Below, one piece after another: positions 14,710-20,546 of a stretch of DNA of 64,000 nucleotides. Source of the DNA: Tistrella mobilis (GTDB lineage: Bacteria; Pseudomonadota; Alphaproteobacteria; Tistrellales; Tistrellaceae); assembly GCF_039634785.1 (NCBI RefSeq), contig NZ_JBBIAB010000008.1, positions 62,001 through 126,000 on the forward strand, given 5' to 3'. The notes under the pieces were generated by a model. The model had not been told where the DNA came from. It was given only the letters and a program-made list of their open reading frames with translations, and ran no database searches. The translations under genes and the position numbers were made by a program. Within the stretch, counting starts at the first letter, position 1; the number at the start of each line of letters is the position of its first letter.

Positions 14710-14737
14710 TTGTGCTTTTGGTGCCGAGGGCTATATT
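14710..14737 (+). promoter_or_regulatory. Putative gltA promoter
   Basis: TTGTGC (14710-14715) and TATATT (14732-14737) are 16 bp apart. A second possible -10, TTATAC (14748-14753), lies just downstream. The gltA start codon is about 70 bp further on. Identified by eye. Confidence 0.4.
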
Positions 14738-14807
14738 CAGGCCGACATTATACCCAGTCGACGCCTCCGCGCGGTGTCGCGCGGAGCGGCTCAAGGAGTC
14801 TTACCGC

Positions 14808-16121
14808 ATGACCGAGAACACCGCCGTCCGTGCTGGTACCGTCACCATCACCGACGATATCAGCGGACAGAGCCACGAGCTGCCGATCTTCGGCGGCACC
14901 GCGGGCAACAAGGTGATCGATATCCGCACCCTCGGCGGCAAGACCGGCTATTTCACCTTCGACCCCGGCTTCATGGCCACGGCGTCCTGCGAGAGCAAGA
15001 TCACCTTCATCGACGGCGACAAGGGCGAGCTGCTCCATCGGGGCTATCCGATCGACCAGCTCGCCACCCAGAGCAACTTTCTGGAAGTCGCCTATCTGCT
15101 GCTGAACGGTGATCTGCCGAACAAGGACGAATACGCGACCTTCGAGCGCAACATCACCCGCCACACCATGCTGCACGAGCAGCTGACGAAGTTCTTCACG
15201 GGCTTCCGTCGCGACGCGCATCCGATGGCGGTGATGGTGGGCGTGGTCGGCGCGATGTCGGCCTTCTATCACGACAGCACCGACATCAACGATCCGGCGC
15301 ATCGTATGATCGCGTCGCATCGTCTGATCGCCAAGGTCCCGACCATCGCGGCGATGGCCTACAAGTATTCGATCGGCCAGCCCTTCGTGTATCCGCGCAA
15401 CGACCTGGGCTATGCCGAGAACTTCCTGCACATGATGTTCTCGGTGCCGTGCGAGACTTATGAGGTGAACCCGGTTCTGGCCAAGGCCATGGATCGCATC
15501 CTGATCCTGCACGCCGATCACGAGCAGAACGCCTCGACCTCGACCGTGCGTCTCGCCGGCTCGTCGGGTGCCAATCCCTTCGCCTGCATCGCGGCCGGCA
15601 TCGCCTGCCTCTGGGGCCCCGCTCATGGCGGCGCCAACGAGGCGGTGATCAAGATGCTGGAAGAGATCGGCTCGGCCGACCGGATCGGCGAGTTCGTGAA
15701 GCGCGCCAAGGACAAGGACGATCCGTTCCGCCTGATGGGCTTCGGTCACCGCGTCTACAAGAACTTCGATCCGCGTGCGACCATCATGCGCCAGACCTGC
15801 CACGAGGTTCTGGGCGAGCTGGGCATCAAGGACGAGCCGCTGCTCGACATCGCCATGAAGCTCGAGAAGATCGCGCTGGAGGACGAGTACTTCGTGGAGC
15901 GCAAGCTCTACCCGAACGTCGACTTCTATTCGGGCATCATCCTGCGTGCCATGGGCATCCCGACCAGCCTGTTCACCGTGCTGTTCGCGGTGGCCCGCAC
16001 CGTCGGCTGGGTCGCCCAGTGGAAGGAGATGATCGAGGATCCCACCCAGAAGATCGGTCGTCCCCGTCAGCTCTATACCGGCGCTGCCGCCCGCGACTAT
16101 GTGGCGATGAACGCGCGCTGA
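14808..16121 (+). CDS. gltA: Citrate synthase
   Basis: A 437-residue type II (hexameric, proteobacterial) citrate synthase that condenses acetyl-CoA and oxaloacetate, the entry step of the TCA cycle. Active-site segments include the [12 protein letters not shown] region and [14 protein letters not shown], with [10 protein letters not shown] near the C terminus. AAGGAG at 14793-14798 precedes the ATG at 14808. It stands alone with its own regulatory region and terminator. The other TCA genes here start 21 kb downstream. Confidence 0.97.
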
Positions 16122-17979: not shown

Positions 17980-18036
17980 CCCGGACGGGTCAGGCTCGGA
18001 GCCGAGTTTCCGCCAGCCGCCGATGGAGAGGCCTGC

Positions 18037-18897
18037 ATGACCGTCACCACCCCGCTCCGTGTCTGTGTCGCCGGTGTCACCGGCTGGACCGGCGGCGAGA
18101 TCGCCCGCGCGGTCGCCGCTGCCGCCGATCTCGACCTCGCCGGCGGCATCGCCCGCTCCGCCGCCGGCCGCAGGCTGGACGAGCTGGTGCCGGGGGCCCT
18201 GCCCGGGGTGGAGGTTGCGGCGGATGTCGAAACGGCCCTTGCCGCAGGCGGGATCGACGTCCTGGTCGACTACACCCATCCATCGGCCGTCGCCGCCCAT
18301 GCCGAGGCGGCGCTGGCACGCGGTGTCCATGTGGTGATCGGTACCTCCGGCCTGGATGCGGCGGCCTATGAGCGGATCGCCGCCGCGGCGCAGGCCGCCG
18401 GCCGCGGCGTGGTCGCCAGCGGCAATTTCGCCATCACCGCGGCGCTCGCCACCCGCTTCTCGCTGATCGCCGCCCGCTATATCCCGCATGTGGAGGTGGT
18501 GGAGATCGCAGGTCCCGCCAAGCCGGATGCGCCGTCGGGCACCGCGCGGGAACTGGCCGAGCGGCTGGGGCGGGTCGCGCGGCCCGAGATGCCCCAGGGC
18601 ACCGTGCCGGTGGCCCCCGACAAGGTGCTGGGCGATCCGGCGCTGCGCGGCGGCACGATCGGCGGGGTCCAGGTGCATTCGCTGCGCCTGCCCAGCTATG
18701 CCGCGTCGATCGATGCCCATTTCGCTGTCGCCGGCGCGCGGCTGGTGATCTCTCACGATGCCGGCAAGGATGCCAAGGCCTATGTCGACGGCACCCTGCT
18801 CGCGATCCGCAAGGTGCCCGAGGTGACCGGGCTGGTGCGTGGCCTCGACGTGCTGCTCTTCGGTCCCGATGACGCGGCGGCGGGGGCGCCGGCATGA
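18037..18897 (+). CDS. DapB-like dihydrodipicolinate reductase family protein
   Basis: A 286-residue protein with the DapB fold. The N-terminal nucleotide motif is GVTGWTGG (residues 13-20), and the C-terminal-domain signature KPDAPSGTA is at residues 162-170. In genuine 4-hydroxy-tetrahydrodipicolinate reductases this segment reads E-x-H-H-x-H-K-x-D-A-P-S-G-T. Here the three His positions are Ala158, Gly159 and Ala161, while Lys162 is kept. The catalytic His is therefore missing, and lysine biosynthesis is doubtful. It overlaps the membrane glutamate-synthase-like gene by four bases (ATGA), so the two likely act together. Confidence 0.72.
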   Translation: MTVTTPLRVCVAGVTGWTGGEIARAVAAAADLDLAGGIARSAAGRRLDELVPGALPGVEVAADVETALAAGGIDVLVDYTHPSAVAAHAEAALARGVHVVIGTSGLDAAAYERIAAAAQAAGRGVVASGNFAITAALATRFSLIAARYIPHVEVVEIAGPAKPDAPSGTARELAERLGRVARPEMPQGTVPVAPDKVLGDPALRGGTIGGVQVHSLRLPSYAASIDAHFAVAGARLVISHDAGKDAKAYVDGTLLAIRKVPEVTGLVRGLDVLLFGPDDAAAGAPA

Positions 18898-20546
18898 CCG
18901 CGAAGACCGAAATCGGCGGGGCCGAGCGCAGCATCACCCTCGACCGGGCGATCCGGCACGGCACCTTCATCCTGATCACCCTCGCCACCCTGCTGTGTCT
19001 GATCCTGGGGGTTACGGTCGAGGCGGAGATCCTGTGGGCCTTGGTGGTGCTGGTGCCGCTGGTGGTGCTCGGCATCGTCGATCTCGGTCAGGAACGCCAT
19101 GCGATCCGCCGCAATTATCCGGTGGTCGGCCATCTGCGCTGGGCGTTCGAGGCGCTCCGGCCCTATCTGCGCCAGTACATCGTGGAAGACGATCTGGAAG
19201 GCCGTCCCTATGACCGGCTGGCCCGCAGCCTGGTCTACGAGCGCGCCAAGGGCGACGAGGACGCCCAGCCGCTCGGCACCCAGCTCGACGTCTACGCCCC
19301 CCGCTACGAGGCGATCGTGCACTCGATCGCCCCCCACCCGGTGGCGACGGAACCCTTTCGGGTGAAGGTGGGAGGGCCGCAATGCACGAAGCCCTACCAC
19401 GCCCAGGTGCTCAATATCTCGGCCATGAGCTTCGGCTCGCTCAGCGCGCGTGCGATCGAGGCCCTGAACCTGGGCGCCGCCCGCGGCGGCTTCTATCACG
19501 ACACCGGCGAAGGCGGGCTCAGCCCCTATCACCGCATGCATGGCGGCGATCTGGTCTGGGAGCTGGGATCGGGCTATTTCGGCTGCCGTGACGAGCATGG
19601 CCGATTCGATCCCGACCTCTTTGCCGAGACCGCCCGGCTCGATCAGGTGAAGATGATCGAAATCAAGCTGAGCCAGGGCGCCAAGCCCGGCCATGGCGGC
19701 ATGCTGCCCGGGCCGAAGGTGACGGCCGAAATCGCCGCCACCCGCAAGGTGCCGGAAGGTGTCGACTGCATCTCGCCGGCACGGCATTCCGCCTTCGACG
19801 ACCCCGAAGGCATGATGCATTTCGTGGCCCGGCTGCGGGAGCTGTCGGGCGGCAAGCCGGTGGGGATCAAGCTTTGTGTCGGCCAGCCGCACGAGATCTT
19901 CGCCATCGTCAAGGCGATGCGCAGCACCGGCATTCTGCTCGATTTCATCGTGGTCGACGGTGCCGAAGGCGGGACCGGTGCGGCGCCGCGGGAATTCTCG
20001 GACCATCTGGGCCTGCCGCTGCGCGAAGGGCTGGTGCTGGTGCGCAATGCCCTGGTCGGTGCGGCCCTGCATCCGCATGTGCGCATCGGCGCCGCCGGCA
20101 AGATGGTCAGCGCCTTCGACATCGCCGCGGCGCTTGCGACCGGCGCCGACTGGTGCAATGCCGCCCGGGCCTTCATGTTCTCGATCGGCTGCGTGCAGTC
20201 GGTGAAGTGCCATACCGGGCGCTGCCCGACCGGCGTTGCGACCCAGGATCCGGATCGCCAGAAGGGGCTGGTGGTCGAAGACAAGGCCGAGCGGGTGCGC
20301 CGCTTCCAGTCGCGCACGGTGCATGCCCTGGCGGAACTGGTCGCCGCGGCCGGGCTGGACCATCCTTCCGACCTGGAACCGCGCCATCTGCTGCACCGGC
20401 GGTCCCCTAACGAGATCGTGCCGATGGACCGGCTTTATCCCTTCCTGACCCCCGGTGCGCTGATCGATGCGCCGGATGCCACACCCTATGCCTCGGACTG
20501 GGCGGCAGCGGATCCTGCGAGTTTCGCGCCACGCCGCGCCGCCTGA
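18894..20546 (+). CDS. Membrane-anchored FMN-binding glutamate synthase domain protein
   Basis: A 550-residue protein. Two adjacent hydrophobic helices (about residues 22-65) anchor it. The rest matches the FMN/Fe-S synthase domain of glutamate synthase (GltB): ISAMSFGSLSARAIEALN, GHGGMLPG, IVVDGAEGGTGAAP, and a 3Fe-4S Cys cluster in GCVQSVKCHTGRCPTG. It lacks the glutaminase (GATase type 2) domain and the C-terminal GXGXG domain, so it is not a standard GOGAT. These stand-alone proteins are of unknown substrate. The gene is co-translated with the DapB-like gene through an ATGA overlap. Confidence 0.83.
   Translation: MTAKTEIGGAERSITLDRAIRHGTFILITLATLLCLILGVTVEAEILWALVVLVPLVVLGIVDLGQERHAIRRNYPVVGHLRWAFEALRPYLRQYIVEDDLEGRPYDRLARSLVYERAKGDEDAQPLGTQLDVYAPRYEAIVHSIAPHPVATEPFRVKVGGPQCTKPYHAQVLNISAMSFGSLSARAIEALNLGAARGGFYHDTGEGGLSPYHRMHGGDLVWELGSGYFGCRDEHGRFDPDLFAETARLDQVKMIEIKLSQGAKPGHGGMLPGPKVTAEIAATRKVPEGVDCISPARHSAFDDPEGMMHFVARLRELSGGKPVGIKLCVGQPHEIFAIVKAMRSTGILLDFIVVDGAEGGTGAAPREFSDHLGLPLREGLVLVRNALVGAALHPHVRIGAAGKMVSAFDIAAALATGADWCNAARAFMFSIGCVQSVKCHTGRCPTGVATQDPDRQKGLVVEDKAERVRRFQSRTVHALAELVAAAGLDHPSDLEPRHLLHRRSPNEIVPMDRLYPFLTPGALIDAPDATPYASDWAAADPASFAPRRAA

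Follow-up and report, generated by a model that had tools for sequence, protein, structure and literature searches.

The 64,000-nucleotide stretch of Tistrella mobilis DNA analysed here (the window) carries, at positions 18037..18897, an open reading frame (ORF) for a protein of 286 amino acids that belongs to a separate clade of DapB paralogues, called DapB2 below, in which the DapB fold is kept without the paired histidines of the DapB active site. There is a moderate probability, judged from sequence, that the Tistrella protein is an NADPH-dependent reductase of an imine or carbonyl compound outside lysine biosynthesis. It stands upstream of a common orphan gene for a glutamate-synthase-like protein, probably in one transcript with it. 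Both genes, and the features mapped in and just before them, lie on the forward strand and are numbered by the window.

A separate DapB2 clade with an altered active site

The protein was assigned by means of the ORF list, Pfam, alignment and a structural model. Both Pfam domains of DapB are recognised in it (DapB_N, 77.6 bits; DapB_C, 56.6 bits), and an AlphaFold2 model built from 14 sequences, with a mean predicted local distance difference test (pLDDT) score of 85.8, finds its closest solved chain in M. tuberculosis DapB with 2,6-pyridine dicarboxylate (5tjy; Z 28.1, root-mean-square deviation 2.5 over 239 residues). DapB2 has in common with DapB (TIGR00036; PF01113 and PF05173) the fold over its whole length, the nucleotide loop, Lys163, the D-x-P-S-G-T loop and Arg212. 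An earlier note on this DNA had taken the NAD(P) fold and the PSGT loop to be kept, and both residue conservation and the predicted fold agree. The PSGT loop is presumed here to hold one carboxylate of the substrate. The nearest named record is that of Tistrella mobilis KA081020-065 (97% identity over the protein).

Among 289 alphaproteobacterial genomes, 17 match the window protein at more than 200 bits, and the next matches reach at most 71 bits, leaving a clear gap; one additional genome (G007) holds a split copy. DapB2 was also found in 7 of 398 genomes drawn from the phylum, in named loci that include Sulfobacillus, Maritimibacter, a Gemmatimonadetes, an Actinomycetota and a Thermoleophilia bin, and in three plasmid records (Pantoea, Mucilaginibacter and Persicobacter), all of them without His159. 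Members were gathered by overall similarity and not by their histidine motif, and the resulting rows come from at least five phyla (Pseudomonadota, Bacillota, Bacteroidota, Actinomycetota and Gemmatimonadota). In an unrooted maximum-likelihood tree of 74 rows, one branch (support 100/99) splits 36 DapB2 rows from 38 other DapB rows. The split was recovered in 100% of 200 bootstrap trees, at a bootstrap correlation of 0.986 where 0.99 was wanted, which is not fully settled. The window protein falls outside canonical DapB in this tree, and the phylogeny that the earlier note had proposed as a check thus places it in a clade of its own. The 36-row set leaves out L047 and L024, in which DapB2 is split by frame breaks, L039, which is by its coordinates the same record as L061, and L110, from which no row was extracted; L021 and L114, with FHR/FHP motifs, were retained in the tree and excluded from the residue counts.

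These last two are DapB paralogues. L021 (G060:C36, 1501-2747) is a tandem pair of DapB-like stretches with FHRLK for HHxxK where read, a divergent paralogue outside the DapB2 clade, and L114 (G593:C13:64772-65140) has the motif FHPRTK and is the third DapB-like gene of its genome, besides canonical DapB and DapB2. The copies split over two frames, L024 (G007:C483) and L047 (Sulfobacillus harzensis), reflect either decay or sequencing error. As for a viral origin, no relative of DapB2 was found in viral_contigs, and six phage-record matches to the window protein (31-37% identity) were compared by identity, with their motifs unread.

The active site was compared by E. coli numbering in the 36 DapB2 rows and 36 canonical rows. 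In the alignment, the window protein carries AGPAKPDAPSGT at the position of HHRHKVDAPSGT in canonical DapB; its rebuilt substrate motif is IAGPAKPDAPSGT (residues 157-169; 18505..18543), in which Lys162 corresponds to E. coli Lys163. The HHxxK catalytic motif of lysine-pathway DapB is therefore absent, with AGPAK standing where canonical DapB has HHxHK, just as the earlier note had read it. His159 occurs in 36/36 canonical rows and 0/36 DapB2 rows (alanine in 31, cysteine in three and serine in two), which confirms that the acid catalyst of DapB is gone, and His160 likewise falls from 36/36 to 2/36 (L041 and L064). Arg240, found in 35/36 canonical rows, is replaced by A, P, D or Q in 35/36 DapB2 rows. 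By contrast, Lys163 is invariant in both sets (36/36 each), and Arg39 is present in every DapB2 row against 14/36 canonical ones. Other residues are fixed in DapB2 and set it apart from DapB: tyrosine in place of Phe79 (36/36), Tyr158 outside Tistrella, a histidine at position 209 (A209 to H, His214 in the window protein; 36/36 against 7/36) and, in window numbering, a C-terminal RG-D pattern made up of Arg268 and Gly269 (36/36) and Asp271 (35/36).

In E. coli DapB, according to the available part of one report, His159 is the proposed acid, acting via water, His160 contacts the C2 carboxylate and Lys163 is assigned to the imine nitrogen, and mutation of His159 or Lys163 leads to a dramatic drop in activity (PMC11489326). 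Within Tistrella, the ratio of nonsynonymous to synonymous substitution (dN/dS) is 0.10-0.17 for DapB2, 0.04-0.06 for canonical dapB and 0.03-0.05 for the synthase gene, so that DapB2 is under clearly purifying selection, weaker than that on the other two genes. Decay, or a pseudogene, is rejected by these values together with conservation across the clade. Because His159 is missing from all clade rows while selection is purifying, the change in the active site is not a matter of chance. DapB2 retains the imine-polarising lysine, the carboxylate loop and the NADPH-type arginine, and lacks what in DapB serves to recognise and protonate the substrate of the lysine pathway, which points to altered specificity rather than decay.

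A reaction can be proposed on these grounds. Lys162 would still polarise a C=N or C=O bond, and the PSGT loop would still hold one carboxylate. The acid His159 is lost throughout, and the C2-carboxylate ligand His160 in 34 of the 36 rows, so that the substrate would not be 4-hydroxy-tetrahydrodipicolinate. It may be a different imine or carbonyl compound, probably a smaller one, with one carboxylate, and the proton could be supplied by water or by a residue peculiar to the clade, for instance Tyr79. NADPH would be bound through the retained G-x-x-G-x-x-G dinucleotide-binding loop (GVTGWTG, residues 13-19; 18073..18093), a motif named in the available part of PMC5962572, and through the invariant Arg40 (18154..18156). 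This residue equals E. coli Arg39, which that same part of the source describes as determining, with Glu38, the binding of NADH and NADPH in DapB (PMC5962572); it predicts a preference for NADPH.

DapB2 beside canonical dapB

A canonical dapB with the motif HHRHK is found on another contig of the same genome (C1:365320); it scores 128.6 bits, and the window gene 79.9. The lack of any other dapB, half of what the earlier note had said would overturn its reading, is thus not what the genome shows, and this second gene, together with the lost acid and the kept NAD(P) fold, makes the non-lysine role suggested there probable. By our count in the 289-genome sample, at least two DapB_N genes occur in 16 of the 17 DapB2 genomes and in 3 of the 272 others. 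Of 21 DapB2 genomes from the genome samples, 20 show an additional DapB_N match above the cut-off (in G071 a fragment only); the one in which none was found is G035, which is 99% complete and has DapF. For the 15 genomes behind named loci, two of which repeat G162 and G114 as judged by coordinates, the numbers are ten with a further match (two of them partial) and five without.

It has to be asked, then, whether DapB2 is a 4-hydroxy-tetrahydrodipicolinate reductase isozyme in which water or another residue serves as acid in place of the histidines, and which backs up DapB or is a copy under separate regulation. The kept Lys163 and PSGT loop would suit such an enzyme, as would the score of the window protein, 141.6 bits against the dapB equivalog model TIGR00036 (cut-off 122 bits); each of the 14 members scanned, which represent several phyla, passes an E-value that we computed as equivalent to this cut-off. 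Set against this are the losses at positions 159, 160 and 240, the retention of canonical dapB in most carriers and the effect of His159 or Lys163 changes on the E. coli enzyme, as given in the accessible portion of PMC11489326. Altogether, an isozyme is considered unlikely.

The equivalog score nevertheless counts against a non-lysine DapB2, and several other observations do so too. DapB2 is the only DapB found in G035, G659, G663, G664, G667 and G668, of which G035, G663, G667 and G668 have DapF; a search for DapF gave no match in G659, G664 or G071. Near metX of G035, where the neighbours of the G164 dapB were sought, metW and metX alone were found together, a gene order that fits either the loss or the presence of a canonical dapB in G035. 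As a control, no DapB_N match at 1e-10 was obtained in 45 of the 289 alphaproteobacterial genomes, or in 31 of 235 good ones, and since the DapB2-only genomes lie close to this baseline, their lack of dapB is within what the search misses or genomes lack. DapB2 may have a lysine role in these few genomes. Position 158 is tyrosine in 33/36 DapB2 rows and isoleucine in the three Tistrella rows, so that the window member departs from its own clade, and the neighbourhoods of DapB2, described below, vary by lineage and yield no single pathway. Substrate and activity, finally, are predictions.

Because DapB2 passes the dapB equivalog cut-off, the family is systematically annotated as a lysine enzyme, and two plasmid DapB2 records bear the name dapB. 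In annotation pipelines and metabolic models, its genes are entered under lysine and diaminopimelate synthesis. Should DapB2 act on a different substrate, an entire family of enzymes bears the wrong name; should some of its members stand in for DapB, the acid mechanism accepted for that enzyme would have to be revised. A literature search that did not cover most subscription journals turned up no paper on such a bacterial DapB clade, which is weak evidence of absence.

Fold relatives and gene neighbourhoods of DapB2

After the DapB entries, the next fold matches of the model are native amine dehydrogenases (Z 18-20, 12-16% identity), which, like 2,4-diaminopentanoate dehydrogenase (PF19328), have a fold related to that of DapB2. 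They differ from it in their length of about 330-350 amino acids and in another C-terminal Pfam domain: PF19328, the amine dehydrogenase C-terminal domain, was not found in the window protein, where a Pfam scan at E up to 1e-3 gives DapB_C. The available part of one source relates that this amine dehydrogenase domain was formerly auto-annotated as dihydrodipicolinate reductase, and that amine dehydrogenases of the NADP type have Ala or Ser at the end of strand beta-2 (PMC11164908). These enzymes set a precedent for chemistry outside lysine synthesis on a DapB-like fold.

Gene context points in a similar direction in several alphaproteobacterial lineages. Genes in unannotated loci were called by length and codon-position guanine-cytosine (GC) content with our own scripts, and the neighbour lists are approximate. 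In G159, whose DapB2 is the nearest by tree path outside Tistrella, the gene is divergent from a cluster of omega-transaminase (PRK06105, NCBIfam), 5-aminolevulinate synthase and polyamine-type ATP-binding cassette (ABC) transporter genes, and the same arrangement is seen in G037, G262 and G165, which belong to one other genus. It is partly seen in G071, where the contig ends after a transaminase and the first part of 5-aminolevulinate synthase, from which DapB2 is divergent, and in L046, where a transaminase lies with potA and potD near DapB2. This cluster is a better contextual lead than the synthase gene and suggests that DapB2 may act close to the metabolism of amines or aminoketones. A narrower form of the proposed reductase can be derived from it, namely an imine reductase or amine dehydrogenase of omega-amine metabolism, whose substrate would be the cyclic imine or aminoketone that the omega-transaminase leaves behind, and the activity of native amine and 2,4-diaminopentanoate dehydrogenases on a similar fold would agree with this. 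However, the linkage is found in 6/36 loci besides the window, the nearest Tistrella transaminase (59% identity) is on another contig, and the low identity to amine dehydrogenases and the missing PF19328 speak against it, so that this form of the proposal is regarded as rather unlikely.

Elsewhere the neighbours of DapB2 are mostly unrelated genes. On a Pantoea conjugative plasmid (L063, NZ_CP045243.1), its neighbours are flagellin/fliD and a gene for methyl-accepting chemotaxis; on a Mucilaginibacter plasmid (L064, NZ_CP155082.1), it shares 4 nt with the gene of a helix-turn-helix regulator and is followed by that of a DMT-family transporter; in one Bacillota lineage (L042, 8789-9658; L045, 2928-3794), it overlaps an aminoglycoside/hydroxyurea-kinase-like gene (PF04655), also by 4 nt; and in an Actinomycetota bin (L043, 7497-8030), a pyridoxamine-phosphate-oxidase-like ORF, recognised by eye, is downstream.

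An orphan gene with such variable neighbourhoods might also encode a non-catalytic protein, an NADPH-binding assembly or regulatory factor of the kind that plant CRR1 may be. CRR1, a chloroplast DapB homologue, is reported in the available part of PMC3390394 to be unable to complement a dapB mutant; it is a parallel to DapB2 by this reported behaviour. The invariance or near-invariance of Lys163, the PSGT loop and the clade-specific polar residues is what would be expected of a working active site, and a non-catalytic role appears quite improbable.

If DapB2 is instead a reductase of another imine or carbonyl, as favoured here, a wider proposal can be put forward tentatively: that DapB2 is an unrecognised enzyme family of at least five phyla, plasmid-borne in part and concealed by the name dapB, with an active site rebuilt around Lys163, Tyr79, His214 and the C-terminal Arg-Gly-x-Asp, and that it may reduce imines with NADPH in a reaction that would be new to metabolism. 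Its substrates would perhaps be compounds that arise from omega-transaminase or 5-aminolevulinate chemistry.

The glutamate-synthase-like gene downstream

The second ORF (18894..20546) encodes a protein of 550 amino acids of the flavin mononucleotide (FMN)-binding glutamate synthase family, assigned by Pfam, homologue searches and alignment. Glu_synthase (PF01645; 288.6 bits over residues 171-488) is its sole Pfam domain, so that it is, as the earlier note had described, an FMN/Fe-S synthase domain without glutaminase. Within CVQSVKCHTGRC (20190..20225), C433-x5-C439-x4-C444 aligns with the cysteines of solved glutamate synthases, which are presumably the ligands of a 3Fe-4S cluster. Two hydrophobic N-terminal stretches within residues 19-68 (18948..19097; Kyte-Doolittle, 19-residue windows) are probably the two membrane helices that the note had mentioned. 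The note had also called the two genes fused, which is wrong: they are separate ORFs, and the start of the synthase-like gene overlaps the stop of DapB2 by 4 nt (ATGA, 18894..18897), an arrangement from which co-translation is inferred. A Shine-Dalgarno-like GGAGAGG (18025..18031) is found 5 nt before the DapB2 start.

The synthase-like protein is an ordinary member of its family (PF01645), with 55-66% identity to the plasmid-borne proteins of that name with which it was compared, and differs from other genes of the family in that DapB2 adjoins it, which is the case only in Tistrella. It is matched at 1e-40 by 116 plasmid records, and five annotated plasmid regions of its homologues present five different neighbourhoods of unrelated genes. 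A close homologue (at least 47% identity) is found in 39 of the 289 alphaproteobacterial genomes, besides a split one in G036. In each of the three Tistrella genomes compared, DapB2 and the synthase-like gene are adjacent and share a strand; no other locus compared has them side by side. Outside Tistrella, among 286 alphaproteobacterial genomes, 14 hold DapB2, 37 hold a close synthase homologue and none holds both; about 1.8 would be expected by chance, and by our own arithmetic the probability of finding none is about 0.14, so there is no association either way.

A conserved unit of the two genes is accordingly rejected. Their products might still act in sequence on one amino-acid intermediate, as the earlier note had proposed, and the overlap, the shared arrangement in three genomes and the purifying selection on both genes would fit this. 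The confinement of the pair to Tistrella, the lack of co-occurrence outside it and the unrelated genes beside the plasmid homologues leave such a shared pathway unsupported and very unlikely, with some room for a link specific to Tistrella. Nothing was found behind the amidating function also suggested. The observation made in the note is confirmed, and the interpretation given there is, as a whole, partly supported.

Two genes upstream of the pair, the window carries a citrate synthase gene (14712-16121); on a Microvirga ossetica plasmid (L126), a citrate synthase gene likewise directly precedes an FMN-binding glutamate-synthase gene, which may be a coincidence.
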